A stretch of DNA of 64,000 nt, taken from Punctularia strigosozonata HHB-11173 SS5. Taxonomy: Eukaryota; Basidiomycota; Agaricomycetes; Corticiales; Punctulariaceae. This document shows positions 8,710 through 58,275 of the stretch, one piece after another. Position 1 is the stretch's first letter. Each line of letters opens with the position of its first letter. The stretch spans positions 474,651 through 538,650 of the forward strand of contig NW_006767433.1 of assembly GCF_000264995.1 (NCBI RefSeq), in the 5' to 3' direction. The translations under genes were made by a program, and so were the position numbers. Under the pieces are notes generated by a model. The model worked only from the letters and a program-made list of their open reading frames with translations. It searched no databases and was not told the DNA's origin.

Positions 8710-8871
8710 CATCTGAGAAAATCTAGATCACTATATGGCACTACATAGTGCCATATAGCCTCCATAGGTCTATAGCAATGTCCTTTGCTACCCGTGCTAG
8801 AAATCTGCCAGCCAATGCTATCATAGTGCCATAGGTGCTATAGAGGGTTCTGTCATGGCTACAGTAGCTAT
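8710..8871 (+). mobile_element. Copy A, left part of a TA/AT-targeting non-autonomous DNA element
   Basis: It starts CATCTGAGAAAATC, like the intact copy C at 50287. It continues with the same ctatag-rich filler until the CACTA-like element interrupts it at 8871. The remainder resumes at 28178. Confidence 0.75.
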
Positions 8872-9315
8872 CACGGCGGTTGGATCAGAGTTCCGACATG
8901 TGTTGAATTTATAACCACGCGTGAACCAGATTTTGAAAATTGGTTGCTCAATCACGAAAGAAGGAAACAAATATCTGTATTTTATAATCTCGTGTATTCA
9001 GCACGCCTTTCAGCATTTCCAGAATTAATGAATAGGGAATTTAAAATGAACACCATGCGCGTATCTACAGCTACATTACAAGAACAATTGGGCATATATG
9101 ATACATCAGATCTTCAAGAATGCGAGTGGTGAACGTGCAGATTAGAATTTTGAGTGCGCGATTTTCAACGGACGAGGCGAGAATTTTGAATTCGATACCG
9201 ATGCATATTGAAAGGTCCAGTCAGCGACCCGTGAGCACCCGCTCAGTACCCCATGAGCGGGTCTTCAGCCCCCGTCGTCGAGATCCGCCGGCCGACGTCG
9301 CTTGCCACATATGCG
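8872..9315 (+). repeat. Left terminal inverted repeat of the CACTA-like element
   Basis: This pairs with 27733-28177 in reverse complement. The best-kept blocks are the outermost 50 bp (CACGGCGG, GGATCAGAGTTC, GTTGAATTTATAACC), a central block (GCGTATCTACAGCTACATTA) and the inner 130 bp (GTCCAGTCAGCGACCCGTGA and following). The middle is clearly diverged. AT-rich sub-motifs containing TTTTGAA recur in it and could be transposase contact sites; that part is inference. Confidence 0.9.
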
Positions 9316-9412
9316 AAGATTTGAAGGGCGATGAGCGCTGCTCGTCTCAATCGGGTGATTAGCTAGAGCAGTGGCATATGTTAGTCAATGTCATAAGGAA
9401 GAAGATAACGAC

Positions 9413-12400
9413 TTACAACAACGAACTGACACGGTCGAGGGCGATTGCCACATGTTTCTTGGCCCCATCCATGAGGTGCTGGACCCGCCGATCGAGCTTG
9501 AGCTGCTTCGCCTTCCAGGTAGTCCTCAACGATGGCTGACATGTCTGGGGTGAGCTATATCGCTCAAGCTGATGCTGGAAGAAGTTCTCCGCGTTTTCGG
9601 ACCACCAGCCTCGATCAACGACCAAATTGCGCCACATATTGGGGTGGGGCCACCACGAAAGACCAGTACTAGTTTGACTGATGATCAGCTCGATCTCCGC
9701 GGTCCGTAGTCGATCATCGCACAACTCCACATTGCGGTCGGCTAGGGTGAGCATGATCCTATGGCCATCTCTGTCAGCGTTGGCCGATGGTCCATCCAAG
9801 GCCACGCTGTAGTCGAGCAAGTGATGAACTATCCTCCACAAGATGCCGCCACTCAGCATGGCTGCGTGAAGGACCGAGGGATGGTCCCAGAGATACGCAT
9901 CGCGAACCTCGGTATAGGTGTCGTAGTCGTCAGGGGTATACAAATGATCCACAGCACGAGGGAACGTAGGCACTTGAGGGGCGAACACAATGCTGTTGTC
10001 ATGAACATGTCGTTGAATTTCATACGAACCAAATGTGATTCCCCTCTCGAGCAACCAAATAGTAGCCTCATCGACGACAGTAAGGCTCGGATTGGTGATG
10101 ATCTCGATGACGAACATCGGGTCGCTGAGTCGGAGAAATGGACCTCTTGGTTGGCTTTTGGCGTATGGCGTATAAACACCATCCCTCAGGGCCGGAACCG
10201 AAGCGGACATGTTTACAAGTCCAAAGGCGAGTCAGGCGACTCGCCAGTCATCCTACTGAGTCCCTGCGGTATAACCACGCCTTCGGCGGAGGGTACTTAG
10301 GACCATTCAACGGGGCCTTGATGTGATGCGCTTGTACGATTGACCGCACGAACCCAACAGCTTCTGACGCTGTCTGCGATGGCAGCCCTGCCACAGAATG
10401 AAGATCGCCTTGCCCAAGAGGGAAGAAATATCCAAGGACTTTATAAACCTCTGAGAGGTCCTTGACGTCGAGCGTAGAGTCGATGTCGATGTCGATGGGG
10501 CCGGGGTTGACTTCCAAACGGAAATGATCTCTCAGAAGGTCGACAGGTGATTGAGTCGGAAGCCCCAGGTCATTAGGATACCTGTTGATGGCACGCATAC
10601 GAGGAACAGGGATTGGGGCGGGCGCAGAGACCGCACCAACTCCATCCACGTTCATCGAAACCACATTCAATGACGTAGCAACCTGATCACTTGTAAGTGT
10701 GGGGGCGGGCGTCGAGGCAGGCGCGGGGACGGTGGCGGGCGTCGGGGCAGGCACGGGGACGGTAGCGGGCGTCGGGGCAGGCACGGGGACGGTAGTGGGC
10801 GTCGGGGCAACGGTGTGCTCCGATGCGGCCTTGGCGTCTACGTGCATCGACACCACAGTCGATGATGCAGCGATCTGACGGCTTGTAGGTGCGGGGGCAG
10901 GCGTTGGGGCAGGCACGGGGACGGGGGCGGGGACGGGGGCAACGGTATGCTCCGATGCGGCCTTCATGTCTATATCCATCAAAACTGCGCTCGACGACGT
11001 GTCGCGTGTGCCTGAAAGGGAGTCAAGTTCGTCCACATCCATGTCTGAAGGTAATGATATTGTAGCCGTGGACCAGGAGCCTGGAGCGATCAAAGATAAT
11101 GCTGCAGAGGCAGACGAAAGATTGGACCACGTCGAGGACGAAGGCACATCTGACGACGTCACGGAAAGCCACAGAGATATTGACGTGGCGGAGGGTAATG
11201 TAGACTGTGTTGACGACGTTATCGAGGGGGACGCTGACGGCGGCGACGGACCTGGAAGAGCTGGCACCGCGGAAAGCTGCAAGGTAGGCACAAGCTCCGG
11301 TGACGATCGATATGGGGGCAATGGTGGGTCGAAGTCGCAATCACGATATAAAGCAGATGTGAAGTCATCATCATCGCCAGGAAGGGAGACGGCATCCTCG
11401 TATTCATTGTCGGAGTCGGCATATGGGTCACGACCAGGCCGAGAGCGCTCGACATAAGGGTCAACGAACAGTTCGCTGAGATCCCGTTCATCCAAAACGG
11501 AGTCATATTTGCATTTCCGAGGGGCATAATCTTCCCATAATTGTTCACGCCTCTCATTCGTGACCCTTCTCCTCGCAAACGCACCCGTTTCCGGATCCTC
11601 CTCCCAAACATAGAAAACAGCACTGCCGTGTGGCGACGGCTGAGGAAATGTGCTCGCATATCTCTCCCTGCTCAGCCGCGACTGTTTCAGTGCTGCAACT
11701 TCCAGATGTTCGATGTAAAATTTGTGATAATCACGGCGACGGGTATGGAATGCAATAAAACTTTCTCCTTTGCGCCAGGGTGGGATGCGAGGAACAACCT
11801 GGCCAGCTTTGTAGTTCTTCTTTTCGTAATTGGCGGCCGTGTCTAGAGGCTTCACGTTCCCAGAAATATGGGGAGGGACGACGACGGGTTGTATGCCAAA
11901 TCCTGTAGCGGACGGGACCATCAGAACTGAGGGTGACGCAGGTTGGGATTGAACAGGTTGTGACGGCGACGGAGCAGATGCAAGCCAATCCGTGTTGTCG
12001 ATGGGCCATCCCGAGGGACTAACCCATCTGGAGGGTTCATCCATGCAGTGCCCCATCCACTAGATGATGTTCTGGATGCCCCCGAGGGAGCATTGTGAGA
12101 GGAAATCTGCGATGATACCGGCGACGTCAGATAGCCATCGCTCCCGTACGCAGGCGTGCCCTTGAGATTGCGGGCAGGGGGTGCGGGGCGCCAACTGGAG
12201 GGAGTAGAGCGCCAAGAAAGCTGATGGTTGCCGATATCAAATGCGTCCCATACTTGTTGCTCTGTTGGACGGAGAGCAGGGTTCATCCCAGACGGTAACG
12301 ACATGACGTTGTCGGGCGTACCCCAGTGGATGTATATGGGGACGTTAGAGTTGACGAAGAAATCGAGATGCTCGCGTAACTCCCAATTGGGACGCATGAG

Positions 12401-13093
12401 AAATCCCACTCGTGATGATTTGAAGTGATTCTCGATGATCCACGATTGGCTCAGTCGATCGATGAAGGCTGCACATGTGCCACCACTCATAAGTACACCC
12501 CGCCAGGCCTCATTAGACTTGTTGAGGTTATTGACCAACACCGCTAGATATGCCAGCTTCGTAGCGTGTTGTAAAAGCGACAACCTTGCACACCAAGCGG
12601 CATCGCACGCACGCGCGTCGTCGACAAAAAGATGGTAATTGAACGAATTTGGTTCAGCGAGCGAAGGGATGCGTTTGGCAAGCGTGGATTCGGCGCAGTC
12701 CGGGATGTTCCTGAGGTACAATTCCAGGGTGAAAATTGCGGGGAGGAGAGCTTCTTCCAGACACTGCCAATCCCCAGCTGCCGCCGGGCGATACTGCCCT
12801 CGATACTCCTCCAACTTGACAGCGGAGCGAGGGACGAAACTGAGGGAAGCCAGGAAAGACCCAGGGAAGTGACAAACGGTGGGGAAGAAGGCGGCAAACA
12901 AGCAATCATTGCGAACCCATCCACGCTCGTGCATGGTCTTCAGACGCGTACTCAATGGGGTGTATTTGTCGGATGGTATGTCTTCAGCTGGGGCATGGTT
13001 ACAAGTGGGGGAAGCAAATAACTGCCCATGGCGGATGAATACGTAAAGCATGCTAAACAAACCGTGCGTCAGTGTCGGTATGTCTGACAACAA
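9413..13093 (-). pseudogene. Large W-rich cargo protein of unknown function, about 1,250 residues, broken
   Basis: Three long minus-strand frames lie end to end: 13093-11921 (390 aa), 12056-10248 (602 aa) and 10210-9413 (265 aa). I read them as one gene. The first has a globular, tryptophan-rich part ending in a PIYIHWG motif. The second has a FIAFHTRRRDYHKFY helix, a VFYVWEEDPETGAFARRR segment, WEDYAPRKCKYDS and then repeats rich in alanine, proline and valine. The third has LLERGITF, a GGILWRI motif and LSWWPHPNMWRN. The junction near 12023 needs a 1-nt shift. I found no in-phase intron there, nor one between the second and third frames. Large proteins of this build recur in mushroom genomes as far as I recall, without known function. 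Upstream exons before 13093 are possible (acceptor at TTTGTTTAG). Confidence 0.6.
10671..10950 (-). repeat. Ala/Pro/Val-coding tandem repeats inside the large cargo gene
   Basis: Two roughly 130-bp coding blocks repeat. Each has a serine-rich segment of the VSMHVD-AKAASEHTVAP type followed by short PVPAPTPA runs. The nucleotide unit is ggcgtcggggcaggcacggg and variants. Such arrays often change length between alleles. The antisense frame at 10966-11457 is a by-product of this composition. Confidence 0.75.
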
Positions 13094-14147
13094 AGCAGCG
13101 GACTAACGTCGGTTACCAACTGGAGGGGAACCTGCAAGGGTAGAGAAATTGGAACCGACGCGAGGCGATGCTGCAATCAGAGTGTCAGCCAATATATGGT
13201 GCCAGATGGAACTTCAACGCACCGAATAAGAACTCGACGAAGACGTGTGAGACACCCAGGACGACGCGAGGACGTAAGAAGACCACTCCTCTCAGACGAC
13301 GCGACGAATATGGGCGATGGGGAAACGAGATACGATGGCGCGTAGGAGACCAGTCCCCTACGAACTTCGGATAGGAGACCACTCCCCTACCGACGTAACT
13401 AGGGACGACCGGAAAACAAGAGCAGACCAGGGTAACGACGACGAGGAGGTAACGAAAGCAGGCGAGGTAACAAAGTGCGGAAGATAAGACGGAGTCCGAG
13501 TGAATTTGAAGACTGTTTTGGGGAGTCATGCGCACGGACCACGCGCACGGACCATGCGCAACCAGTCATGCGCGGCCGGTGCTCGGAGTCACTGAGTACT
13601 GCTCACCTTTGCCTTCCTCGCCATCATGTCCTTCGGGCTCGCGATGTGGTTCGCGAGTGCCGCTTCATCATGATCGTCTCGTTTGTCGTCGCCAGGACCA
13701 TGCACAACCAGTCATGCGCCGCCGCCGTTGGTGCTTGGAGTCACTGAGTAATCTCATTACCGCTCACCTTTGCCTTCCTCGCCATCATGTCCTTTGGGCT
13801 CGCGATGTGGTTCGCGAGTGCCGCTTCATCGTGATCGTCTCGTTCGTTGTCACCAATATCGTCACCGACTTCTTTGTCGTTGGCCACATCGTCGCCACGG
13901 ATCTCGTCGCCACGCCTTCAAAGAAACCCCGTCGCCATTGCCACCGCTTGTGACGTGGTTCGTGAGATGGATGTGCATGCTCACCGTGGTGGATCCGTCG
14001 TTGCCACCCCTTTCAAGAACTCTCCCCGTCGCTGTTGTTGCCGCCATTGCCGCCACTCGTGACATGGTTTGCGAGACCTATGTGCGTGCTCACGGTGGAG
14101 GATCCGTTGGGGCAGAATTACGCTTATCCCTATTGTAAGTACAAATA
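13094..14147. repeat. Gene-free cargo interval with direct repeats and palindromes
   Basis: Two direct copies of a roughly 150-bp unit occur at about 13546-13690 and 13698-13855 (starting gaccatgc-caaccagtcatgcgc). Each contains a palindrome: GCTCGCGA-TGTGGT-TCGCGAGT at 13637-13658 and again at 13798-13819. Two weaker versions follow near 13949 and 14052. I see no gene. The same palindrome in the opposite orientation recurs at 22.1-23.2 kb. Confidence 0.7.
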
Positions 14148-16852
14148 TCAATACCCAAACGGCAGAATGTTAACCAGTGCCCAGGTTTCCTCTTTGACAC
14201 GCAGAATGTCGTTGGCGTATTCCCTGCTATGGTCCTGCAGGAATCCGATGTCATATAATGGTCGCGCCAAACCTTTCACCGGACTCCGTTTTGATACTCG
14301 AATATTGTCTGCCTGAGGATGAATGTTCTTCAACCAGGCAGTGCTCCGGTCGGACCTTTGTCGTGGTATCGGTGTTGTACCCTGCTTTGCAAATGCTCCC
14401 CCCGCTTCCACGCGGTACGAGTCGATGGCATCTAGAAAGGTGTCCATGTCCCGGTGTCACAGCATAACGCTCGGCCTGAGGTACGACTGGTGAGTTTCTT
14501 CATCGACGTCGGATTCGTCGGAACTCATTCCGTCAATCCCCAGGACATCCATCGTTTCTTCAGTCGCTTTCCACACCGACTGTTCAACTGAAGTCTTCGA
14601 CGTGCAAAACTTGTGATAGCAAATCTTCTTTTGTCTGTGCCAGCGCTAGTCCATCCCATCAGCCACAGAACGGCCCAAGTCATCAAAAGACCTACCGCTG
14701 TTCTCCTGGTACGCCTCTGACCGTCCTCCGACTGCATTTCTGCATCCTTGTGCATGCGAGTGTCACGCTCGCTATCTCGGCCTGCCAGACCCTTTTCAGT
14801 CGTCTCATACCTCCACGTCTTGGCGTCCGGATCCATCACCATTCTTGGCCTCACCTGTATCCGTTCTGTCCACACCCGTATCCATTTGTGGTAGACGAGA
14901 TCCTCCCAGTACAAAAAGGTCGCGACTGGCACCATCTTGGGTGGTTTCCCAACTTGCCAGATCTCCCGGCTCTGCCGATCCATGCACTTCTGTGCGAGGA
15001 TTACACAGATAGCTCGATTCCAGGCATTATCGGCCGGTGAGACGTCGGTGAACTTGAAAAGGTCGCCCTCCACCAGTCCGTCGGTGCTGCCTTCAAGGAA
15101 CGCATTGACGACACTCTCCGGAGGAGCGGTCAACATTACACTGTCCTTGTCCGTTGCTACTCCAACTTCACTTCGAAATATGTCTCAGACGATAGCCTGG
15201 GATGTAGTCAGCCCGCGCATATATTGGAGGATTTGTAGCCAGCTCACCAAATGATGACGACGGAACGGACCCTTGAATGACTCTCGTTCGAGGTGGAGCG
15301 ACATCTGGTATTGCCAAGCTGCAGCCTTGTCGTTGGACGCTCGCATCACACCACTGGTCGCTGGTGTTGGTGGTGTCGTTGTTGGTGGGCCAGTTGCGGG
15401 TATCGACCCCGTTGTCGGTCGATCCGTATTCATTGCATCTGTGGTGGTTGTTAGCTCCAATGGAGTCACGGTCAATGGATGCAGCCCCGGTACCGCGGTG
15501 GGGGGAGGAGGATCAGCTGGCGACATCGAATGCAATCTGGGTGGTTCTACCGAAGTGGTTGCTTGTGGACCGTGCAATGCGGTACTTGTTGTTGTCGCCG
15601 GAGTAACGGCCGGAGCCGGCGGTTCATCTACTGCGGTCGGCTGAGGTGGTTCAGCCGGCGACGTCGAATGTGATCTGGGCAGTTCCGCTGAAATCATTGG
15701 TGGACTGTGCGATGCGGTACTATTTGTCGTTGCCACTTGTGAGGTTTTGGACACTTCCAGTTCCTGCAATGTTTGCTCGGCAAAGCATCCTCCAAGAAAT
15801 TTATGACTACATACCTCTTGAAACCATCGCAACCGCGCCTCCATGGAGTCCTTCATCATCTGCATTTGTTGTTGAGCCTCGTATAGCTTTGCTTGAATGC
15901 CGACGTAATCTTGCTGCAGCCTGCCGAGTGCTTCATCTTTCTCACCCAAGACCGCTTTCAAGGATCCAATCGTTGCCGTCGAATCGGTGAGTCTATTCTG
16001 CATAGCACCATCTAAACGCTCCATGATGTCCGTCCTCGCCCTCAGATCCGCCACGTCGTGGCTCATCGTGGTCAGCGATGCCGTCCGATGCTTCAGCTTC
16101 TCTTGAAGGCGATCATTGCGCTTCAATTGAATGCTCAATGATGCTCCCAACTTCCTTGCGGATGTTGGCGCTCGGGGTGTCCCAGGGGGTGTGGAGGTGC
16201 GGCCCCGTTTCTGCCTATGGACATCACGCTGGTCTAATGCGAAGTTAGCGCGATCCAAGTATCTCGCAGACAATACCTACTATCGCTCATTGACGTTACG
16301 CTTGATGCTCTTGGCGGTACCCTTATAAACAGTTTCTCTGCCCGCGGTGTGGTCTGCGGTGTGTGAGCGGCAAGCCTTTGCGTGGCCAATGCGATCAACG
16401 ACATACCTTACTCGTTGCCATCGTCATAGTTCCTGCGTTGGTTCCAGTGGTGGAAACGCCGGTATTGCATAATGCCAGAGTGCATCCTATTCAAGGTATG
16501 ATCTACAAACGGTATGAGCTTCTGCGTGGCTGATGCAATATGCGACAGCACCTCGCCCATAGTCAGATCCGTGCTCGTATCCATCGCCGACGACTCCACC
16601 GCAGGAGCTGATTCAGAGGGCAGCGACATATGCATACTCCCTGCTCGCGGCGTGGTCTGCGAGCGGTGTGAGCTTCTGCCGTTGATGTGATGATCGACAT
16701 ACCTCGTCTGTCGTTGAACCCGTGGTGTCCGTCGTCGGCATGGGGTCTGATCCAGAAGACTCAATCGCAGGCTGGGTTGCCACGATCTCTGGGACCTCCG
16801 GAGTTAGGAAAGGCGCAGCGATCCGCTGCATCGTTGGGAATGTCCCGGGCAA
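14148..16852 (-). pseudogene. Coiled-coil, GMSSDESD-motif cargo protein, broken
   Basis: From upstream to downstream on the minus strand there are possible N-terminal exons (16852-16408, acidic, containing TMGEVLSHIASATQKLIPF). The main frame 16273-15185 follows, with a predicted coiled coil (LKRNDRLQEKLKHR to AQQQMQMMKDSME) and then Pro/Thr/Ser-rich repeats. After one in-frame TGA (15184-15182) the same register continues to 14525 with EGDLFKFTDVSPADNAWNRA. A 1-nt shift near 14590 leads into an acidic GMSSDESDVDEE motif. A further stop near 14455 precedes the conserved-looking end PVKGLARPLYDIGF. I recall multicopy mushroom proteins with the same GMSSDES and PVKGL-x-RALY endings, function unknown. 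Three lesions suggest decay. The stated 16273 start is not an ATG; the true start is upstream. Confidence 0.55.
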
Positions 16853-17204
16853 ATCTAAGTCACTTTCGTACGGCGCTGGTGATCCTATGCTGCTCGGGGG
16901 CGGTGTGGCCTAAGGGCGATTAGCCTCTGGAATCACGATGCGGTTTGACTCCATACCTGTGATCCGGGTTCCGACATGCAAATATCCTCCTGGGACATGA
17001 TATCGGACTTGATTGCATACTGCAGAGAGCTTGTCGCGTCGCGTTAAATCCACTGAGCTCCTCGTTACCAGTCACGTGTCAAAACAATTGGCGACGACTG
17101 TGGGTCACAACATTATTCTTTGGCGTTCCAATGCTTCACTGCCCCCTCCCAACGGTTGGAGATGCCCTCCCACAACCGACGTCGAAGATTATTGTTCGAG
17201 ACCA

Positions 17205-17580
17205 ATTTTTTTTGTAGCGATGCGACTTTGGATGTGACATCGCTCATGACTTCCATTCCACGATTTTGTCCCCCCGATGTCGTTGTTCAGAGCTCCCTCC
17301 ATCACTATTCTTTGTGTAGACGTCGTCCTTGCCGTCCTTTGTTTGCAGACTCGTTGTCCACCGTCGCCGCGAATCTGGGGCTGCGACGTTGCTCTCATCT
17401 CTCGACATCGTTTTTTGTGGTAGACGTCGTCCTGCCGTCCTTTTTGTTCACAGACTCGTTGTCCGCCGTCGCCGTGAAACCAGGGCTGCAACGTCGCTCC
17501 AAACCCTCAGTTTTTTTGTTGCCGACGTCGTCTTGCTGGGCTCGTTGTTCGCCGTTGCCGCCGAACTGATAAAAGCCTCT
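17205..17580 (+). repeat. Tandem repeat of about 104 bp, three to four diverged units
   Basis: Units begin at about 17316 (GTAGACGTCGTCC), 17420 and 17521, with a weaker one before them. Each holds a CGTCGTC motif, an ACTCGTTGTCC motif and a T-run. It lies just upstream of the small gene at 17630 and may contribute to its promoter, or may be simple expansion. Confidence 0.7.
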
Positions 17581-17629
17581 CATCAACGATAGACATTCTC
17601 ATTCACAAATCGACAACTTCCACTGCACA

Positions 17630-18096
17630 ATGCCGTCCTCTCGTCATCGCTGCTCCCCTATCCATGGAGAGGTTAGCATGATAACACTTAGTCATATCGT
17701 TTACTGAACATATCTCAGATTCGGAACCTCAGAATTCTGGGGTGCATGTACTCTCGTCGCCTCCCTTCACCTGTGGTGGTGAAGGTGGACGTGGACGATG
17801 ACACTGTAATCCGGTATCCGCTCCTGGAACGTTATGTCGACGACGAAAGGGTGCAGCCCTTCATACATGACTGCATCATGATCTTACGCGAAGGTTCTCG
17901 TGTGCATCGATTTCTCGTGTTCTTCAAGCACCATCTGAGGCTCCGGGTGAACTCAGGTTTACCTGGAAACTCGAATGGCACGGTTCCTTTTCGTGGCAAC
18001 ATCGTAGTTGCTCGCGCAGGCGTGCGCAGACCTGGATGCATCGTTAATATGCGCGGCCGTGATCGTGCACTCGCGGATCTGGGTCTCTGCCTGTAG
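17630..18096 (+). CDS. Small two-exon cargo protein, 139 aa, unknown function
   Basis: Exon 1 is 17630-17671 and exon 2 is 17719-18096. The 47-nt intron has a TATCTCAG acceptor and joins in phase 0. The protein starts MPSSRHRCSPIHGE, continues with IRNLRILGC (a short segment that could be the start of a helix-turn-helix) and ends with a basic C-terminus containing NMRGRDRALADLGL. No stop or frameshift is present. I recall small mushroom proteins with a similar start and a similar NMR-x-RDR-x-LAD ending, but cannot assign a function. It faces the 18304-18762 gene tail to tail, with about 210 bp between them. Confidence 0.6.
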
Positions 18097-18303
18097 GTCC
18101 CTTTTTGTTCAATAATTTGTCGCACGACTGACTCATCCTTAGGTTCACGCATGAGCTGACAAAACTTGGGGGATGCAAGCGGAGATTCTGTATCCCGCGC
18201 AAGTTCTCATTCAATGTAGACACTGCTGGTTCACGCCGTTCCGCTCGACTTGCGAACAAATATATATGATACAAAACATGTAATACACCGTATATACAAT
18301 GAA

Positions 18304-18762
18304 TCACATTTCATTCACGAATAACGAACGGATGCAACCGTGTCGCAAATGTAGATACGGAGATGTCCGAATGGGAAGTAAGACGACAGTTCCTACAGAC
18401 TTGATGGTAACCATTCCTCCATGGTACTGGCATGCATTCCGCTGACCTTCAGCGGTTGCAAAGTAAACGTGCACGCGGTTTTCGGCGGCCCAGACGAATT
18501 TGCGGACTTTGCCGTGGATCTACCTTATTGTTAGCGGGGATGACCAGAGCAAATTTTTCGCCGTTACCTCACTCCATTCATGAAGGGCACGAACGCGGCG
18601 GTGCTCATGCTTGAAGACACCAGTAATCTCCAGTATTTGCTCTGGTACAAGCTGACTGGTTATCTTATGCACATCAAAAATACTACGCATCGCAGAAAGT
18701 GTGTCTTTGCCCTCGTCGCCAGAATCATCCGACCACCCGGATGCTGGTTCTCGTTCAGGCAT
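18304..18762 (-). CDS. Small two-exon cargo protein, 136 aa, unknown function
   Basis: Exon 1 is 18762-18568 and exon 2 is 18519-18304. The 48-nt intron has donor GTAACG, branch-like GCTAAC and acceptor TAG, in phase 0. The N-terminus is acidic (GWSDDSGDEGKD) and is followed by a helical segment with EHRRVRALHEWSE. Across the splice it continues IHGKVRKFVWAAENRVHVYF and CQYHGGMVTIKSVG, a beta-rich stretch that looks like a small barrel-type domain. The intact splice and clean frame argue that it is real. Alternative reading without the intron gives a shorter, less convincing 80-residue frame. Function unknown. Confidence 0.65.
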
Positions 18763-18888
18763 GCAATGGGCGAGGGGAAGAAATGGCGACTGTGCGAGGG
18801 GAAGAAACGGTGACCTCTTATTCTCATGCTAAGGTTTATTATATACAATGTGTCATTGCGTAATATACACGCGCGCTACCTAACTGGG

Positions 18889-19915
18889 TCACAATTTGAA
18901 ATCAAGGTGCTGAGGAACGGGACGTCCTTGACTGTGACGGCCTGCAGTATACTTCAAACGGGCATTGATGAAATCGTCAACGGGCCAGGCATCGATGTAA
19001 TGCTGAACCAAACGCGGGAATGTAGCCTTGACCTCGGCGCGGACGTGCTTTTTAGCATCCTCCCCTTGAGCCTTGAATTGCTTGCGATGATCACAGTGTC
19101 TGGCAACAATGTCGTTGATTGCGTTCTGAGAATCTCATCAGACGGCACTCATCAGGCACGGAGGCAATTCAATACCTTCATCTTAGTGTATTCATCCAAG
19201 GGGATTCCTAACGCGTCGCTGAGTTTATACCCCCCCCTAGACGGGCGTCCTGTGTCCCCAGAAGGTTTGTGGCGTCGAGACGCTTTGCTGTCAGACTCGA
19301 GCTCATCTTCATCGGTATCACCGGTATGGTTCCAATGCACCCGCCGGTGTTCGCTCTCAACCTGGGCCGCGACTCCATCCTTGTCTTCTTCCACGACCGG
19401 TAGAAGAGCAAGAGCGGGCGAGCGCCGCAGCGAAGCAGCACGGGGCGTCCCGGGGGGATGGGACGATGAGCAAGGGGGTTGCGACAATGAGCGAGGGGGT
19501 TGCGACAATGAGCGCGGGGGCTGTGACGACGAGGGAGGAGTTTGTGACGGTGACTGTGTAGCGGTGGACGTTGTGCGTGTCCTCGGCCCAGCAGATGGGT
19601 GAGGTGTCGACCCACGAGAGTCTGGTAAATGTGGACCTGATGCTGGGGCGTCATCATCGGGGGGGGGTACGAAGTAGCACGAACACCGTGCGGCTTTGCA
19701 CGGCACAGTTGGCTGATGAAGTATGGATGCACGGCAACAGCGAGCTTCTTCTGAGTGCGGTCGGGGCCGCCGCCAAACTCAGTAGACGATAGAGTCGTCT
19801 CCAGCAATGTTGAAGGAATAACGGATCTGAAGTCCAGGAGGGGCAGTAGCACATATCGGGGAGGGGGAGGGGACAGCGGTTGATAGTAAGGATAGATGGA
19901 CATCGCTGACTCCAT
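18889..19915 (-). CDS. Ser/Pro-rich cargo protein with conserved C-terminal helix domain
   Basis: The start region (19915 down) encodes a proline/tyrosine-rich segment and KLAVAVHPYF. After a break near 19690 another frame encodes serine/proline repeats (three copies of PPRSLSQ-like units), an acidic DTDEDELESDS stretch and LGIPLDEYTKMK. A clean 50-nt intron (19175-19126, phase 0) leads to the last exon, 19125-18889, with HVRAEVKATFPRLVQHYIDA and then WPVDDFINARLKYTAGR. The break near 19690 coincides with a run of nine C. Either a 45-nt intron there (GTGTTC to CCCCAG, in phase) or a homopolymer indel explains it. The C-terminal pattern resembles a family I recall from mushroom genomes; role unknown. 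About 150 bp separate it from the next minus-strand gene. Confidence 0.6.
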
Positions 19916-20497
19916 GGTGAATGGTGTTGTGGGTCATTGGAGCCAGGCTTTATCATGGAGGATAAAGGAGGTGTTATTGTTTTGAGCCCAATCCATGCTG
20001 GGAGGAACAATAGGTAAACAATAGGTTATTCCCACAATTGGTCCTGTAAGAGACTCGCCGAAGTCACGACGATGAGAGATCCCACGAAGGGAACAATTAA
20101 GGGGAACACTGCGAAGCGACCATATCCAGTCAGGCAACAATTAGGTAGGATAGCACCAAAATGTCATATGACCAATGAGGTGACTACGTCGTCAGGAGAC
20201 TAGCGCGGGGATGACAGAGGGGACCATGGAACAAGGTTGAGCCATGACAAGCCGACAAAGTGACCATCACAGCCAACAATGCCCCGCCAACGAAGTCACC
20301 ACCACAGGCGACATGTTGCAAATAAGCCAACCCATATAATAATGTGTATTGGAGACGGTGACGCCGAAGTCGCAACCACTGGCAACATGTTGCGGAGGAG
20401 CCAAGCCATATAATAATGGACATTGGGGACGTCGCTGACAATTGCACCATCAGTATATATGGCGCCGATATTCTGAGCCTAAAGCTCATAACTTACC

Positions 20498-21823
20498 ATG
20501 TCATCCTCCGACTTCAAGCCCCTGTCCGACCATTTTATCTGCACTGGTCGCATCAACCTTCAGGGAGGCCGGGCCGTTTACCAGCTCGCATTTTCTCCCG
20601 ATGGAAAGTTCCTAGCGTGTGGAGGTTAGATCCCTTAAGATGTTTCGTCACTTCATGGCTGACCTGCGTGCAGGAGAGTTCGGTGCCTGTCTTATCCATA
20701 TTGAAACCACCACCATTCAGAAGAATCATCCCGCGTACGACCTACGGGTTCACGGAGCGGTGATGGCAATGGAGTGGGTTGGCAACACGCTGGTACTAGG
20801 CTCGGCATACGGGTACATGAAGATTTGGGGTCTGCAGAGAGGTGTGCTCGAGGAGTGGCATACGTTCCGCGTTGCGGAAGGGACAGAGGTGACCTCGCTG
20901 GCGATCCGGGGGCAGCCGGCAAGGTTCAAACTGGCAGTCGCGACGAGAGACCACGTTGTCGTGCGACTAGACATAACACCTGACGAGGTGACCGAAATCT
21001 TTGCGGTGCAGTTGGAGAAAACATTTGCCAGGACGGTGGTGTTTACTGGCGACCGAGACGACATCCAACTCCTCGGGATGTTCGATGGCATGATGTACGT
21101 ATATCACTTCAGAATATCGACTCGGAGGTTGACGGTCGAATAACAGGTACACGTTGAAGTCTCATGAAGGGAAGCTGAAGATCAGCAAATCTCGTTCGAT
21201 TTGCAGACTTGTGTGAGTGCGATGATTGCCGCGAAGCCGAACCATCACTGAAACGTTGCCCAGGGGTTACGCAAGTTTCGACTCGGACCACCGAGAAGTG
21301 CTGGTCGATAACACCGACGCATTCGCCATACACAGCACAGAATTGGGGAGCTGCTTGAACGTCTTCTCAACGGGACGGCCGACATGGAAGATACCGAAGC
21401 AAGTGGTCTTTGCGGAAGGGGGGCAGACGGTAATTGTCGGAAGCGACCATGGAGATGTCTACGTCTTTGATAGAGCCGGGGGCCACCCACAAGCAGTCCT
21501 CCACCATCAAGACACTGGATACACGCAGACCATTGCTGTGCGTCGCATGCATCAATATAAATCCCATATCACTAACTTGCATCCAGACATGTTCAACAGG
21601 CAATGGTTGTCTTGTAGCATGTGGAACGTCACTGGATGGAGTGCCCAGCTCTGTATCGATATGGAAGAGCAAGCCCGCAGACCCGCTTCCGTCGAATGCA
21701 CCATTGCAGAATACGTCATCAGAATCTCCCCCAGTCAAACCATCGCCAAAGTCGGAACCGCTTATACTGCGCGTTGTGGCCTGGATCATGGCTTTATGGA
21801 TGATGAAATATTTGCTGGTATGA
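20498..21823 (+). CDS. WD40-repeat cargo protein with C-terminal hydrophobic tail, 374 aa
   Basis: Five exons: 20498-20624, 20674-21094, 21147-21212, 21264-21537 and 21587-21823. All introns are 49-52 nt and every phase closes, giving one uninterrupted frame. Beta-propeller-type repeats are visible: VYQLAFSPDGKFLACGG, VMAMEWVGNTLVLGSAYGYM with KIWGLQRG, TSLAIRGQ with LAVATRDHVVVRLD, and KQVVFAEGGQTVIVGSDHGD with VYVFDRAGG. The end is serine/proline-rich and finishes with a hydrophobic segment of about 20 residues (LILRVVAWIMALWMMKYLLV), consistent with a tail anchor. WD40 propellers are protein-interaction scaffolds, so a role in assembling element or host factors at a membrane is only inference. 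It is the best preserved of the longer cargo genes and lies upstream of the repeat cluster and the transposase. Confidence 0.78.
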
Positions 21824-21859
21824 GTCACCTTGGGGATCGAGCGATCGGCAGTATCTGAC

Positions 21860-23260
21860 GCCCCCATAGACGGGCACAGAGATGCATTGGTTGATGGAGG
21901 ACCTCTGGTACATGAGAGTACGGCCGGCTATTGTCCACACGATACTGCTCTTGTAATCGGCTGATCGCAATGACATAATTGTGACATTCGGAGGCGCTGA
22001 CAGCGTCTGGCGTATACACTGTGGCAGATGGATGAATCCTGTCACTGTAGATAGATGGACGGGGATGATACTCACGAGCATTGACGACCACGATATCGCG
22101 CGACATCCACGCCGATGTCTGGCGTCAAAGCCTACAATGGAGATGGGCCTGAAGCAACGCTCGCGAACCACGTCGCGAGCCTGCAAGCCAAAGAACCTCT
22201 GAAGGAGGGCGATGGCGGAACGTTCGGTAGTGATGACGGGCGGCTCATGGACGGCGACGATGACGCCCGGGTTGCAGGGTCGATTGCACGCTGCGTCAGG
22301 GAGAAGACCTCCAAAGGAGGATGTGGACGATGGAATGGATGGTGGCGATGTCACTGGAGATGGGTCTGAAGCGACGCTCGTGAACCACATCACGAGCCTG
22401 CAAGCCAAAAAAAACCTCTGAAGGTGATGTTCGGTGGTGATGACAGGGTGGTCATAGACGACGATGCCCGGGTCACAGGCTCGAACCGCGTATCGCACGC
22501 TGCGGCTTCCAAATGGCGACGTGATTAAAAACACGGCCTTTTGAAACAAGGGGTGGAAACGAGATCGGTGTTGCGCATTTAGAGGAGCTGGACTGTGGCA
22601 AACAGATGAGTCACGTCACAGTATATGGACAGGGGATGATACTCATGAGCATTGCCGATGTCTGGCGTGAAAGCCTATTGGGCCTGAAACGACGCTCGCG
22701 AACCACGTCACGGGCTTGCAAGTTAAGGACCTCAAGCGACGCTCGCGAACCACATCACGAGCTTGCAAGTCAGGAACCTCTGGAGGAGGGCGATGACAAA
22801 GCGGTCGGTGGTGATGACGAACGAGTCATAGACGGCAATGGCGTTGGGCATTTGGAGGAGCTGAACTGTGGTGAACAGATGAGTTGCGTTACAGTCTATG
22901 AACAGGGGATGACACTCACGAGCATTGACAACTACGATGCCACAGGAGGTTGACGCCAACCAATGACTACGATGTCACACGAGATTGACACCGATGTCTG
23001 GCGTCAAAGCCTGAACGGAGATGGGCCCGAGGCGACACTTGCAAACCACGTCGCGAGCACGCAAGCAAGAGTGGCGATGATGATGCATTTGGTGGCGACA
23101 ACAAGACGAGGATCATAGACGGCGACTCCCGGAGCGGCGCTCGCAAACCACGTCGCGAGCGCCGCAAAAGACGACTACACTGACAATGAAGTATGATGTG
23201 GCTGAAGTCAAGGATGGCAATGATTAGGTAAGGTGATCTAGTGGCTGGAGCACATCATCT
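21860..23260. repeat. Cluster of GCTCGCGA/TCGCGAGC palindromes in minisatellite-like units
   Basis: At least six copies of an inverted repeat with 8-bp arms and a 6-nt centre (ACCACG or ACCACA) occur at 22159-22180, 22376-22397, 22694-22715, 22741-22762, about 23037-23058 and 23139-23160. In the copy at 22376 both arms changed together (GCTCGTGA with TCACGAGC), preserving symmetry. Units also share gatgtctggcgt, gcctgaaac and ggtgatgac motifs. No gene is seen. The centre reads in the opposite direction to the copies at 13.6-14.1 kb. Confidence 0.75.
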
Positions 23261-23816
23261 GTCACTTTTCTCTCCCCCTCCCCTGGCCTCACCTCGGTGT
23301 GTGGTCACTGAGCGCGTCGTCGGCGCCGCACAGCGCAGTTTGGTTGCCTCAGTGTGTGGTCACTGAGTGTGGCATTGGTGCAGTGATCGCCTCGGTCCAT
23401 GGTGACGGAGTGTGCTGCAATTCTGTTGCACCATAACCGTTTCTTGTTCCATTTGCAACAATGCTTTGTATACGTGTTCTGGCCTCGTCCCGCATCCGTC
23501 CCTTTGCCTTGCCTGCGTACGTTGTATTTCGCTTCGAGCTCGCTTATATCATTTCTTACGTTGCTCATCCAGCGACATTGCAACATCGCGACCCATCATG
23601 AATTATCCCTGGAGGGTCTGGCTCTCACAAGACCAATCCTGTCTTGTGCGGTGTACTTCTTTTTGTTGACGCCCGACAATGTGCATTGTACTTTTTACAA
23701 TGTGCGTTGTACTTTTCATCCTCTTTCTTTCGATGCTTGTTATTCATCAGTCGTATTTATGCAGGTAACTTGGTGCTCGATGTTTTCTCCATCAATTCCA
23801 CGACCATCGTCCAGCC
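23261..23816 (+). promoter_or_regulatory. Presumed transposase promoter and 5' leader with repeated GTGTGGTCACTGAG motif
   Basis: Just upstream of the transposase start two close copies of ggtgtgtggtcactgag / agtgtgtggtcactgag occur (about 23296 and 23352), followed by a third diverged one (ccatggtgacggagtg). They are followed by pyrimidine-rich sequence up to the ATG. Regulatory meaning is inference from position and repetition only. Confidence 0.35.
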
Positions 23817-26800
23817 ATGCCGGCACGACGTACCTACCATTCCCAAATGTCGGAGCGCTTGGCCGCTCTGCATATGGTGTCGGTGCCACCTCCCACACTT
23901 CTGGATCTACAGGATATGATTGCTGTCGTCTCCACCGCCATGACCAAATCTCTGAATCGTCCATCCCGCTCCCGACAACGCTCCCATAGCCTGAGACCTG
24001 TGGTGGACTCAGGCGCAACTGGGTCGGGCATTGGGCCTGATCATAATGGCAGTGACTACATCACGCGCAGACAAATGCGCATTCTCCGAAGCATCCAGGA
24101 TGGCATCACGGAGTGCCAGACAAAGTCGACTCAGCCGAGGAGCATCCAACTTTATCTTGAACTTCGAGGACGCCTGGGGGATCTTCGTACAGCCCTGCAA
24201 CAGCTCACTCGTCAAGTCCCATCGATCCAATCCGGCAAGAGCGCTGCAATCGTACAAATCGATGGCCTTGAAGACGAGTTGTATGAGTGGAATAAGTCTC
24301 TGGGATCTCATGTACAATCAATTNNNNNNNNNNNNNNNNNNNNNNNNNNNNNNNNNNNNNNNNNNNNNNNNNNNNNNNNNNNNNNNNNNNNNNNNNNNNN
24401 NNNNNNNNNNNNNNNNNNNNNNNNNNNNNNNNNNNNNNNNNNNNNNNNNNNNNNNNNNNNNNNNNNNNNNNNNNNNNNNNNNNNNNNNNNNNNNNNNNNN
24501 NNNNNNNNNNNNNNNNNNNNNNNNNNNNNNNNNNNNNNNNNNNNNNNNNNNNNNNNNNNNNNNNNNNNNNNNNNNNNNNNNNNNNNNNNNNNNNNNNNNN
24601 NNNNNNNNNNNNNNNNNNNAAGACGAGTTGTATGAGTGGAATAAGTCTCTGGAGTCTCATGTACAATCAATCGTATTTGACAGTGGTAAGCAGCTCGACT
24701 TCTCCTGATCACTGTTGTTGTCACTAACAATACGTGTGCAGCTCATCATTTTGAGCATCAGATTGACCGATACACCGCTTTAGCCCAAGTTCTCATGACC
24801 ATCGCCTTCATCTGTCACATCGTCATGGGGATCAGTCGTCGCAACGCGGAATTCATCGTCGGTGCCATGGTGCTTTGCCTCAACATCGCTAGTTTCCGTC
24901 CTGGAGATGTCGCGCTGCAAACGTCATACCAACATCTCCCTACATCCCTCCAAGCCATCTTGCCGAAGTTTGGTGCTGGTGGTCATTTCGTCGCATATGC
25001 TGTCTGTCCTGTCTGCCATCACACATATCCACCTTCTGTCACCGGTTCATACCCCCAAATCTGTACCAACAAGCCGTTGCCAGATACAGAGTGTCATGAA
25101 CAACTTTGTGACAACAAGGGCAATCCGTTGAAGACGTTCCTCTATCACTCTTTTCCTGATTATCTATCAGGCCTGCTCTCAGACCCAGATCTGAAGAGGG
25201 AAATGGACAACGCGACGTCGTCTGTTGCGGACGCTGCGTTCATGGACCTCAACGATGACACCATCCGAAGCCCCTTCCACGCCTCTTTCCTGCAATCGTT
25301 CCGTGGGGCGGACGGGGAGTTCTTCATGACGGATTGCGCGGATGGTCGTTACGCCTTCTCCCTGTGTGTCGACTTCTTCAACGTTGAAGGGATGAATATT
25401 CGCGGGGCCCGTACCTCCTGTGGCATCATCGCGTTAGCCTGCTTGAACTTACTGGTCGATATCCGCTACAAACCTCAGAATATGTACCTTGCTGGCATTA
25501 TCCCCGGCCCCAAAGAACCACCGCTCACTGCGACTAATCACTATCTTCGCCCACTCATCGATGATATGGTCAAGGCATGGCATCCCGGAATATACGTTTC
25601 TCGGATGGCTCTCCGTCCTCACAGTCGCTTGATGCACAGTGTCATCGCCAATGGTGTGTGCGATCTTCCTGCCGCCTGTAAGACATCATCGCTTGCCCCG
25701 TCTATTTCCAAAATCTTTTGCTCGCTGTGCGACTGTTGGCATGTTACCGATGACAAAGGCAACATCATCAAAGACTGGTGTCGTCTCCTCAATCGCATGG
25801 ATTACGAGGCCTGGAATATGCGTGACGGGTCTGAAATGTGTTCCTTTGCGGAGCGTTGGCGTGATGCGAGCTCAACACGAGAGCAGGATGACATATTTAA
25901 GCGGCATGGAGTCCGCTGGTCAGAGCTGTGGCGGCTACCTTATTGGGACCCCACCATCCAACTCGTCGTCGACCCCATGCATTGCTTGTATGAGGGGCTT
26001 GCCAAGTTTCATTTCACCACTGTCCTTGGTCTATCGGACCCCAGTGTGACAGACGCTGCAAAATCTCAACCGGCCTTCTCATGGATGTTCGCGCTGCCAC
26101 CTATCGATGATGAAGACATTGGACTTGGCGATGTCGATTCCGTCATCAACGTCCCCCCCGACCTCGGACCTGGCGATGCCCATTCCATCATCGACGTCTC
26201 CCCAGACAGTCAAGATGACAATGGCTTGAACATCAATGTCTCCGCTGATGTGCCCGACGTGGTTTGGACGCAGAAGCAGGTGAAGGACGTGCAGAAAGTC
26301 CATTCCTTGTTGACCTCACCGGTTCGGTCTTCGGATGTCTCACCAGGTTTGTCGTTCGGTGAACTTCGGGACCACCTTTTGCAACATATGGCACAATCTC
26401 TGCGCTTCGTAGCAGATGATTTGGATCTTCATGTTCAACCCGTTCATCGTCGTTCACCAACGAAAGCAGAGTTCGTGATCGCGATGATTGAATGGGTTCG
26501 TGATATCTTACCTGTTAAGTTGATTCCTGACTCTTATCTGATCACAGCGCCGCCATCAATCGCTCCAACCGCCAGCGCAACCAGTTTCATCAACTGATAT
26601 GTTACACCGGCTTCGTGAGGTTATCCGAAAGGTCATGAAACCATCGTGGGTTGAGGCCATCCCGGAGGACTTTGGCGCTGCCAGTGCCGGGACACCGAAA
26701 GTGGCCGAATGGCGTACACTCTTCAGAATCTACCTACCGTTGGCCCTTGTTTCCCTACTGTCGGAGGGCACGTCCCCCCAGTTCATGGACATGGTTGATA

Positions 26801-27747
26801 ATACGATGGAACTCGTCCTTGCCTTGATCATTGGCTGCCGTGGAACCACGTCCGAGGAACATGCCGCTGCCTACCATGAGCACTTGCGCAACTACATTGA
26901 AGGGATGCAAGTTCTATACCCGACCTTGCAATGCAACTCGATACACCATCTAGCCTTCCACATCTATGACTTCCTACTCATATTCGGTCCAGTGCCATTG
27001 TGGTGGTGTTTCCCTTACGAGCGTCTCATAGGCAAACTACAACGTACAAATCACAACCACGTCTTCGGCGAGCTTGAGGCAACTATTCATCGCACTTTCG
27101 TTTACACCAGCAGCCTCTTTCGATGGCTGTCGCGACCTTCATGTCCAGACATTGTCCTCGCGTGCAAACACCTCTACGACAAGGTTTACACCAGTCAACG
27201 TGATGACATTCTGATCATGGCCGACGACGAGGACACGTTATCCACCACAGTTCCAGTCCCCGACATAATGGCCGACATCATGAGCGGCCATGTCAAGCTC
27301 ATCGTGCGTAATCATCTGCGGTGTCACCGTCAGGTCTTCAGCACTTGGCGGGCTCACCAAGGTAATAGCCGCGTCGCCCACATTTTCCACCACCAGCTCC
27401 GGGTGGGATGGATTGAATACATATACCGCGACGGAGGCGTGTGGATGTACGCGATACAGCACTTCCGGTGCTCCGAGCCTGGTCCATTTGCAAAGTGGCC
27501 CGCTCTTGGCGCCTTGATATGTTCCATAGACATGGAAGAGGAACTTTTCCCGGTCGAATCCAAGAACGTCGTCCACCATGTTGCTATGTACCCGATATCG
27601 GATACTTCCCTTGCTGCCATTCGTTTAACGCCATCAGTACGTATCTTCTTTCCCTGCCTCCTTTCTTGTGAGTGTCGCCTTGCACGACGTGTCATCGCGA
27701 CACCTCGCCGTCCTTTGACCATCCCTCACCGGTCACATATGTGGTAA
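23817..27747 (+). CDS. Tnp2-family (CACTA/CMC-like) transposase, interrupted by an assembly gap
   Basis: This enzyme would cut and rejoin the element ends in the nucleus. Exon 1 starts at ATG 23817 and runs through the N gap to 24685. Introns are 24686-24741 (56 nt, phase 1) and 26514-26547 (34 nt, phase 0, unusually short). Candidate catalytic residues are Asp at 25371 (CVDFFNVEGMNIRG), Asp at 25971 (VVDPMHCLYEGL) and Glu at 27019 (WCFPYERLIGKL), matching the D-D-E layout of Tnp2 and DUF4218 proteins. Other family marks are HYLRPLIDDMV, a Cys/His cluster (FCSLCDCWHVT, VCPVCHHTYP) and LPYWDPTIQLVVDP. The end overlaps the right terminal repeat by 15 nt. Apart from the gap I find no stop or frameshift once the introns are removed. 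Confidence 0.82.
24324..24619. other. Assembly gap of 296 N inside the transposase gene
   Basis: The roughly 52 bases before the Ns (starting aagacgagttgtatgagtgg) are repeated almost exactly directly after them, with differences only at ggatct versus agtct and at the last base. Real sequence need not be missing: the two contig ends probably overlap by these bases and the gap may be artificial. Merging them would leave the reading frame open. Confidence 0.9.
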
Positions 27748-28177
27748 CTGACATCGGCCGGCGGATCTCGACGACGGGCTTTGAAGACCCACTTATGGGG
27801 TACTGAGCGGGTGCTCACGGGTCGCTGACTGGACCGCTCAATCTGCATCGGTATGGAATTTGAAACTCTCGCCTCCTCAGTCGGAAAAAGAGTAATTGAA
27901 ATTCTATCCTGTGTTTTCACCTCGCGCATTCTTGAAAATCTAACATATCGTATATGCCTAATTGTTCTTATAATGTAGCTGTAGATACGCTCATCGTGTT
28001 CACTTGAAATTCCCCACTCATTAGTTCTTGAAATATCAAAAGGCATGCTGAATACACTTGGTTTTAAAATGTGGGTATATGTTTCCGTCTTTTGTGATTG
28101 AGCGACCGATCTTCAAAATCTCATCCGCGCACGGTTATAAATTCAACACATATCTGAACTCTGATCCCACCGCCGTG
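27733..28177 (-). repeat. Right terminal inverted repeat of the CACTA-like element
   Basis: Reverse complement of 8872-9315, about a fifth diverged overall with conserved outer, central and inner blocks. It includes the last codons of the transposase frame. The outermost bases CCGCCGTG are followed by the target duplication TAT. Confidence 0.9.
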
Positions 28178-28180
28178 TAT

Positions 28181-33710: not shown

Positions 33711-33712
33711 GG

Positions 33713-34361
33713 TGTCAGGGCACGGCTCCCACACTCGCCTCATGTCTCATTGTTCCCCATTCTGCTTCTGCTTCTGTCCCATTTTGTTCATTTCCCGCAA
33801 TACTTCCGTCTCCCTATTTGGTCACGCTCTCCCTATTTGGTCACGCTCTCCCTATTTGGTCACGCTCTCCCTATTTGGTCACGCTCTCCCTATTTGGTCA
33901 CGCTCTCCCTATTTGGTCACGCTCTCCCTATTTGGTCACGCTCTCCCTATTTGGTCACGCTCTCCCGTGCCCTCCTAGGCTTCCCGTGCCCTCCTTTTGG
34001 CATCTCCCCTATTTTGTTCTGTTGCTCGGCGCTCCTAGGACCTTCGCACGCCACGCGGCCTTCCTAGGCTGCTCCATTGGTCACGTGTCAGGCGCCCGGC
34101 GAGGACCCTCCCCTTCTCTCATTGGACCATCTTTTGTTGCGCTGATGGATTATTAAGCTACTATATAGTCGCCTGTCGCACCGGGGAGCGACCCAGACTT
34201 GTTCTCTCAGTTGCCTCCCTGCCTTGTGTGACAGGTATGTGTATTCTCCCTCGTATCTTCATGTATATACTCAGTTGCCTCCCTGCCTTGTGCGACAGCA
34301 TCTCCACCGCCGTCCTGGGGGATCCGCGCCGCTCCTAGGAGCTCCAGCGCGTACTCTGACA
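33713..34361 (+). mobile_element. Solo LTR, family 1, 649 bp with 19-bp tandem array
   Basis: Termini TGTCAGGG and CTCTGACA with an exact 5-bp duplication TGCGG (33708-33712, 34362-34366). It matches 33013-33524 in reverse and 57051-58270 directly. The extra length comes from the tandem array at its left side. Confidence 0.9.
33808..33962 (+). repeat. Eight tandem copies of a 19-bp unit inside a solo LTR
   Basis: The unit ctctccctatttggtcacg is repeated eight times without visible variation. The sister LTR at 33013-33524 has a single related unit, so the expansion is recent. There are no spacers, so this is not a CRISPR array. Confidence 0.95.
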
Positions 34362-58270: not shown

Positions 58271-58275
58271 GAGTC

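Follow-up and report, generated by a model that had tools for sequence, protein, structure and literature searches.

The wood-inhabiting fungus Punctularia strigosozonata carries a genuine DNA transposon of about 19 kb in which six genes lie beside the transposase. On its sequence features, the group to which it belongs is a giant, multi-gene branch of EnSpm/CACTA with long terminal inverted repeats (TIRs) and a recurrent gene core. The reading that we favour, with a probability of roughly 85% and with the genome of this one species as its context, is that the region holds one copy of a giant, self-contained multi-gene EnSpm/CACTA family whose accessory core is recurrent and selected. Since several of the extra genes recur in distant relatives within the genome, they appear to be standing transposon parts and not accidental passengers.

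Borders and insertion site

Copy A occupies positions 8872..28177 (19,306 bp, no strand) of the 64,000-nucleotide stretch that was analysed (the window), as delimited by its TIRs and an empty-site match. Its termini read CACGGCGGT from 8872 on the left and ACCGCCGTG up to 28177 on the right, and a TAT target-site duplication (TSD) stands at 8869..8871 and 28178..28180 (neither stranded). The left TIR (8872..9316, + strand) and the right TIR (27733..28177, - strand) are each 445 bp long, are 82% complementary and form the longest of the 25 inverted-repeat pairs of the window. The CAC...GTG ends, the TAT duplication and the TIRs of about 445 bp that the first-pass annotation had described are all confirmed here.

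An older element, interrupted at both borders, had also been proposed, and this is borne out. With one TAT left between them, the two flanks of A align to 14 uninterrupted target-repeat copies in other parts of the genome, with 81-95% identity across the junction. Of the 19 rows that the search gave, 14 are these copies, two are the flanks of A itself and three match in part; junction spanning was called from the aligned ranges. No junction-spanning match occurs among the window and the eight other loci compared.

Related elements in the genome

At least six related elements, B, C5, C13, C5b, C9 and C27, are found elsewhere in the genome. CAC...GTG termini are present in all six elements with both ends visible (A and five others), and each of the six is flanked by a 3-bp duplication: TAT in A, ATA in B, GGA in C5, AAT in C5b, TAC in C13 and AAC in C9. 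The ends begin with CACG in 11 of 12 cases, the exception being the right end of C5, with CACA. C27 runs off its contig, so that no duplication is visible. The lack of a second copy with the same borders had been named beforehand as an outcome to look for; the search instead yielded five further bordered elements with 3-bp duplications, and the proposal of a giant Tnp2/CACTA-type element stands. Few 9-mers are repeated in the terminal regions of A, C5 and C13. For the more distant tnp2 loci C12, C18 and C14 a search for borders found none; beyond the right end of the C12 gene, 1.7 kb of sequence has no other match in the genome, and the contig ends there.

The assembled elements span 12.7-60 kb, gaps counted. 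B is 95-97% identical to A across 8872-13715 and 24657-28177; WD40, G2, G3, G4a and G4b are missing from it, and that part contains a 3.5-kb gap. The left TIR of A is 99.1% identical to that of B and the right TIR 94.6%, both values exceeding the 82.2% between the two TIRs of A. The difference between left and right TIRs thus predates the split of A and B, and TIR identity was dropped as a measure of age. The main blocks common to C13 (36,290 bp, TIRs of 614 bp) and C9 are 95-97% alike, with TIR cross-matches of 93-94%.

An assembly gap of 296 N (24324..24619, no strand) lies inside the transposase gene of A, with a 52-bp near-duplicate (96%) on either side. This location and these flanks would favour a scaffolding artefact, the two halves having been wrongly joined over the gap. 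Such an error is extremely improbable, given that the TIRs, the TSD and the empty site are all consistent with one insertion and that the same linkage is seen in C5 and C13 with no gap between the genes. C13 has no internal N gaps and C5 none between the transposase and G1, which makes the gene linkage independent of scaffolding.

The transposase

The Tnp2-type transposase gene lies at 23817..27639 (+ strand; 3' end provisional). It matches PF02992 (E=9.1e-7) and, weakly, DUF4218. Its main open stretches are 24690-26597 and 26542-27639, and the start, MPAR, was set by comparison with C9, C5b and C27. The PF02992 scores are weak (28.7 bits in A and 31.6 in C5, against a cut-off of 28.6; 27.4 in C27, slightly under it); the scan covered these three elements, and the transposases of the others align to that of A. 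The D of a VDFFN block and the E of an EWR block occur in all eight tnp2 loci compared, while the D of an I/VDD block and a CxxC occur in seven, C12 deviating; the catalytic roles of these residues are putative. The C5 reading contains one in-frame stop. Between the two clades of elements, transposase identity is about 45-49%.

The accessory genes

The WD40 protein (20498..21826, + strand; last coordinate approximate) was modelled at 374 aa from exons 20498-20624, 20674-21094, 21147-21212, 21264-21537 and 21587-21826, all four introns being GT-AG. The public prediction differs in its last exon, with a length of 401 aa, and otherwise agrees. A hydrophobic stretch lies close to the C-terminus. 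The gene is present in six of the seven elements. A PDB sequence search returned two weak chains, each a WD-repeat protein, and a protein search gave nine matches, two from Punctularia and seven weak. The protein searches (WD40, G1, G4a) detect only proteins with 5-residue words in common and may thus overlook distant relatives.

Two of the proteins are large. G1 (9413..13051, - strand) is conserved in its N, middle and C parts. In C5 it is one open frame of 1152 aa, predicted publicly as PUNSTDRAFT_133529 with 1116 aa; in A it is broken by frame shifts near 12000 and then near 10250, and in B two TGA lie within the matched stretch. It was found in five of the seven elements, with short or weak matches in C13 and C9; C9 lacks a 1.18-kb block that carries much of the C-terminal part of C13's G1. 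A search for G1 in C5b, which contains 13 kb of N, found none, and neither G1 nor G2 was seen in C27. Among the 8000 candidates with most shared words, the protein search gave two matches, Punctularia itself and the metagenome protein P0002 (33%); G1 was not found in viral contigs. A PDB sequence search with the G1 alignment gave three matches to ubiquitin hydrolase 28 (E 0.0015-0.0024); they fall in the low-complexity middle and were judged to be noise. G2 (approximately 14148..16909, - strand; conserved part 14154-15349) has a coiled-coil-like N-terminal half, according to weak Pfam matches, and was found in five of the seven elements. Its C5 match contains two in-frame stops at which introns are possible.

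The remaining proteins are smaller. G3 (17630..18096, + strand, 142 aa) and G4b (18304..18762, - strand, 137 aa) are by-eye spliced models with one intron each and, among the seven elements, occur in A and C5 only. G3 is 72% identical between the two. It has relatives at C18, C12 and C11, and three of its five matches lie outside proven elements; those in C12 and C18 are about 13 kb from tnp2, which is suggestive, and only that, of linkage. In A the frame of G4a (18889..19915, - strand) shifts at a poly-C run and is thereby broken, perhaps through a sequencing error. In C5 the gene corresponds to PUNSTDRAFT_133527, a two-exon prediction of 315 aa with which the model agrees. It was found in five of the seven elements (short or weak matches in C13, C27 and C5b), and its protein search gave two matches, Punctularia and P0013 (86%).

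The six extra coding units of the first-pass annotation are these, G1, G2, G3, G4b, G4a and WD40; that reading had missed the gap in the transposase gene and the broken state of G1 and G4a. The check that it proposed, whether the same six genes recur between TIRs, finds all six and tnp2 shared by A and C5, and subsets in C13, C5b, C9 and C27. In C5 the readings of G1, G4a and WD40 are intact, though the copy as a whole is not clean; it offers material for direct tests. Copies A and B, which are related to it, are probably inactive. In the public annotation three accessory genes pass for ordinary genes of the fungus, one named 'WD40 repeat-like protein' and two 'hypothetical protein', so that counts of lineage-specific mushroom genes may include many transposon parts.

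Recurrent core or cargo

The copies of 36-60 kb have grown at least partly through nested transposons. Transposon-domain matches occur in three of the ten C13 ORFs and two of the four C9 ORFs scanned; a phage-integrase match in C13 comes after an RVT_3 match, and it and a KDZ match within C9 are taken as nested. Among the C13 ORFs there are also matches to the central domain of S-adenosylmethionine synthetase and to the HEAT domain of elongation factor 3; the HEAT match falls in a 1.36-kb block that the sister copy C9 lacks. These two matches, the absence of the HEAT block from C9 and the large size of the elements would fit a Starship-like cargo carrier, whose transposase moves changing, host-derived genes perhaps useful to the fungus. 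We consider this unlikely. The core genes recur in elements whose transposases, from one clade to the other, are about 45-49% identical, the scanned ORFs of A contain no tyrosine recombinase match, and the extra DNA is in part nested transposons. Moreover, all six genome-wide matches of WD40 and all five of G2 lie in element loci, with none elsewhere in this genome at E<=0.001; the other outcome named beforehand, that the internal genes are host genes found elsewhere, is thus at odds with these two queries.

It might also be supposed that the TIRs of an ordinary transposon recently came to bracket a chromosomal gene cluster and then mobilised it, once. The scanned accessory proteins have no recognised transposon domain, WD40 being the sole notable match, as such trapping would have it. 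Yet four of the six genes occur in both transposase clades, and a host version of WD40 or G2 was not found in this genome, so that recent trapping is very unlikely. One capture that predates the clade split, with the genes later adopted into the core, agrees with the multi-gene family that we favour and forms part of that explanation.

Co-divergence and selection

Divergence of WD40 follows that of tnp2 in six elements (Pearson 0.95, reached by 7 of 720 permutations, on few independent points). Leaving out C9, a near-twin of C13, gives 0.92, reached by 6 of 120 permutations. The idea of Starship-style 'cargo' in the first-pass annotation is not supported, in view of this co-divergence and the recurrence of the core genes; the analogy is weak because the gene core is stable and not a changing cargo.

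Between A and C5, NG86 selection estimates, which are rough with synonymous sites near saturation, are 0.06-0.07 for tnp2, 0.08-0.15 for WD40, 0.05 for G3, 0.11 for G4a and 0.10 for G4b. For G1 and G2 the synonymous sites are saturated and dN/dS is therefore not given. Third codon positions are the most different in all 11 A/C5 stretches. At the level of sequence, the A/C5 comparisons suggest purifying selection on the element genes. Recent copies look largely unselected, with NG86 estimates of 1.08 for A/B tnp2 and 0.80 for C9/C13 WD40 exon 4 (exon 2, 0.12). Cut-and-paste elements of the superfamily are as a rule small. At least four extra genes have here been kept beside the transposase across two old clades, which indicates that they do something for the element.

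Possible roles of the accessory proteins

In the proposed mechanism, a Tnp2-type DDE transposase would act on long TIRs starting with CAC and make staggered insertion cuts of 3 bp. Between the ends lies a recurrent core of WD40, G1, G2 and G4a, joined in the A/C5 clade by G3 and G4b. On the favoured reading these genes have passed down together with the transposase, and selection has, within what is measurable, kept them as working parts. Most likely their role lies in the life cycle of the element itself, cargo of benefit to the host being improbable. WD40 and G1/G2 may partner the transposase as scaffolds or by binding DNA ends, or may instead counter silencing.

We tentatively suggest, as one possibility, that the group is an unrecognised Agaricomycete branch of EnSpm/CACTA built as an obligate multi-protein machine for movement or escape from silencing, and able to gain host-like sequences. 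Besides Tnp2, such a machine would comprise the WD40 protein as scaffold, a pair of very large proteins and one smaller partner, all kept across deep divergence. That the accessory genes are a module dedicated to anti-silencing or counter-defence, and not transposition helpers, is rather doubtful; this view overlaps with the favoured multi-gene family, which allows both roles. Other fungal DNA transposons are described as having captured TET/JBP genes, for which escape from methylation silencing has been proposed (PMC12730594), and the rough selection estimates of the accessory genes resemble that of the transposase. Against such a module, the scanned proteins (G2 in pieces) contain no TET/JBP or other chromatin-enzyme domain.

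Comparison with known systems

Plant CACTA elements have short TIRs and many subterminal repeats, and classical ones carry one or two genes, unlike the seven of A and C5. Polinton/Maverick elements have a 6-bp TSD and a protein-primed polymerase; here the TSD is 3 bp, and the scanned ORFs of A have no polymerase match. The cargo of Starships is variable between elements. The present elements resemble Starships as giant fungal elements with many genes, and differ in their DDE-type transposase and recurrent core, the host-like C13 fragments being an exception to stable content. The Starship captain is described as a tyrosine recombinase (PMC13066641), for which no Pfam match was found at E<=1 in ten ORFs of A, or at E<=0.1 in a few further ORFs of the window. 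The earlier contrast between Starships in Ascomycota and the present element in Basidiomycota is not clean, the same source reporting Starships in the basidiomycete Tremella fuciformis (PMC13066641).

Plavaka ends are given as TGT..ACA or CATCA..TGATG (PMC12730594), unlike the CACG..CGTG seen here; the scanned ORFs of A have no Plavaka Pfam match, and ten of them no match to the KDZ transposase (PF18758). Fungal EnSpm and Plavaka elements with a TET/JBP gene are known, the EnSpm with CAC..GTG ends and a 3-bp TSD (PMC12730594). As described there, these elements are likewise CACTA-like with an additional gene, though the proteins scanned here have no TET/JBP match. EnSpm transposases are characterised by C(2)C and H(3-4)H motifs beside the DDE residues (PMC12730594). 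The likeness to EnSpm/CACTA lies in the CAC...GTG ends, the 3-bp duplications and a PF02992-type transposase with a CxxC block; the usual content is 1-2 ORFs (PMC6431247), whereas TIRs here are 445-614 bp long and enclose up to six accessory genes. The soybean CACTA Tgmt* (20.5 kb) is similar in size, tnp2 domain and 3-bp duplication and differs in its imperfect TIRs of 13 bp (PMC2613891). Among the published accounts compared here, the nearest precedent comes from the red alga Chondrus crispus, whose enlarged En/Spm families measure 16-20 kb and have 4-5 ORFs (cited in PMC6431247). Compared by description, these share superfamily, size class and the presence of several ORFs; the Punctularia elements belong to another kingdom, have seven genes in the A and C5 copies and reach 29-60 kb, as assembled, in others.

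Insertion borders of element A

The strongest proof of the borders of A, the element at window positions 8872-28177, is its empty site. When the two flanks of A are joined with a single TAT, 14 places in the genome span the junction uninterrupted, with identities of 81-95%. This search gave 19 matches in all; the remaining 5 comprise the two flanks of A itself and three partial matches, and no junction-spanning match was found in the window and the eight other loci compared. These uninterrupted sites bear out the proposal of the first-pass annotation that A interrupts an older element. That annotation had also placed both ends of A, its TAT duplication and its 445-bp terminal inverted repeats (TIRs) correctly.

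Related elements in the genome

TIR and transposase searches across the 33.6-Mb assembly detected at least six further elements. Element B (C1:2913461-2926207; 12.7 kb, including a 3.5-kb gap) is flanked by the target-site duplication ATA. C5 (C5:1118682-1139080; duplication GGA) contains two N gaps, both flanked by duplicated TIR pieces, apparently an artefact of assembly overlap, so that its true size would be about 18.9 kb. C5b (C5:2214684-2243997; duplication AAT) spans 29.3 kb, 13.2 kb of it N, and C13 (C13:737898-774187; duplication TAC) occupies 36.3 kb without gaps, between TIRs of 614 bp (94% identical). C9 (C9:29956-90044; duplication AAC) reaches 60 kb, a span that includes an insertion, carrying 5.8 kb of N, within the left TIR. 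C27 lies on a contig of 24.7 kb, on which no termini are visible, with inverted repeats of 457 bp (99.6%) near the contig ends. Three additional transposase loci, on C12, C18 and C14, yielded no element borders. A 381-bp TIR fragment at C4:2606424-2606804, near a contig end, is 99% identical to the right TIR of A and has no element body alongside.

Gene content and order

Comparison of A with its diverged relative C5 reveals seven genes: the large G1 and G2, the small to medium G3, G4b and G4a, a five-exon WD40 gene and the Tnp2-type transposase (tnp2). The six extra coding units counted in the first-pass annotation are thereby correct. The public protein PUNSTDRAFT_133529 is identical across 97% of the C5 G1 frame, which identifies the species as Punctularia strigosozonata HHB-11173 SS5 (Corticiales, Agaricomycetes). 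The spliced model of C5 G4a equals the public prediction over all 315 amino acids, and the WD40 model agrees with its public counterpart as far as the last exon. At the Pfam WD40 cut-off of 27 bits, the A protein passes (28.4) and the C5 protein falls below (21.5).

The transposase is present in all seven elements (A, B, C5, C5b, C9, C13 and C27) and WD40 in six, B being the exception. G2 (A, C5, C5b, C9, C13), G4a (A, C5, C5b, C13, C27) and G1 (A, B, C5, C9, C13) occur in five each, counting as present the short or weak matches of G4a in C13, C27 and C5b and of G1 in C13 and C9; G3 and G4b are each confined to A and C5 (2/7). C9 lacks a 1.18-kb block that holds much of the C-terminal part of G1 in C13. 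Absences of genes from single elements are not firm, since B and C5b have gaps and some 24 kb of the C9 interior lay outside the comparison.

In whole-genome searches, where counts are lower bounds because only the best candidates were scored, a WD40-exon query gave at least six matches and a G2-piece query at least five, those listed all lying within the elements. G3 gave at least five, of which three of the five listed (C18:376692, C12:1061450 and C11:227844) lie outside proven elements. Those on C18 and C12 lie some 13 kb away from distant tnp2 genes, a hint that a second clade with several genes may exist.

Gene order changes while much of the gene content stays. C5, C13, C9 and C5b share one arrangement, with the transposase at one end and WD40 directed away from it; in C5, C13 and C9, G1 occupies the far end. 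WD40 points towards the transposase in A and C27, and the middle block of A is inverted relative to C5.

Divergence, selection and reading frames

Transposase identities define two clades, {A, B, C5} and {C9, C13, C27, C5b}, 45-49% identical to each other. WD40 distances track those of the transposase over six elements (Pearson 0.95; 7 of 720 permutations reach this value) and also when C9, a near-twin of C13, is omitted (0.92; 6 of 120), both correlations resting on few independent points.

In the comparison of A with C5, the transposase has a dN/dS of 0.06-0.07, WD40 one of 0.08-0.15, G3 of 0.05, G4a of 0.11 and G4b of 0.10, values that are only rough because synonymous sites are near saturation; saturated cases (G1 and G2 in A/C5, two WD40 pairs) are left out. 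Elsewhere the ratio is 0.17 for G2 (C13 versus C5b), 0.13 for tnp2 (C9 versus C27), and 0.80 and 0.12 in two exons of WD40 (C9 versus C13). For the A and B transposases it is 1.08, the value expected for copies decaying without selection. Their main stretches are open in A, with an in-frame stop in the second stretch of B, and G1 and G4a are broken in A. Given this ratio and the broken genes, A and B are probably inactive. In C5 the G1 and G4a frames are open, the transposase reading has one in-frame stop and the G2 match has two, for which introns could account; the C13 transposase match has three TGA.

Nested sequences

Transposon sequences are nested in C13, and two of its ORFs look like enzymes of the host. 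One, EF3 HEAT-like (C13:768051-768671), lies in a 1.36-kb block absent from the sister element C9. At only 48% identity to the single other match in the genome, this ORF did not arise from that match by recent copying. The other (C13:755912-756730) matches the central domain of S-adenosylmethionine synthetase. KDZ transposase and CxC2 matches in C9 (C9:47474-49523) are apparently nested. A repeat at window positions 33013-34361 and 57894-58271 is also present inside B, C13 and C9, and so probably represents a different transposon for which these elements are insertion targets.

Mechanism and comparison with published elements

Ends, target-site duplications, empty sites, a Tnp2-family transposase and multiple insertions are all in evidence. 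The transposase would move the element by cut-and-paste, and the accessory proteins may serve the element itself; no cargo of benefit to the host was recognised in the element parts scanned. Among the matches listed from the CC-licensed PMC literature there is no multi-gene giant CACTA element from Basidiomycota. The closest of them is the En/Spm of Chondrus crispus, 16-20 kb with 4-5 ORFs as cited in PMC6431247.
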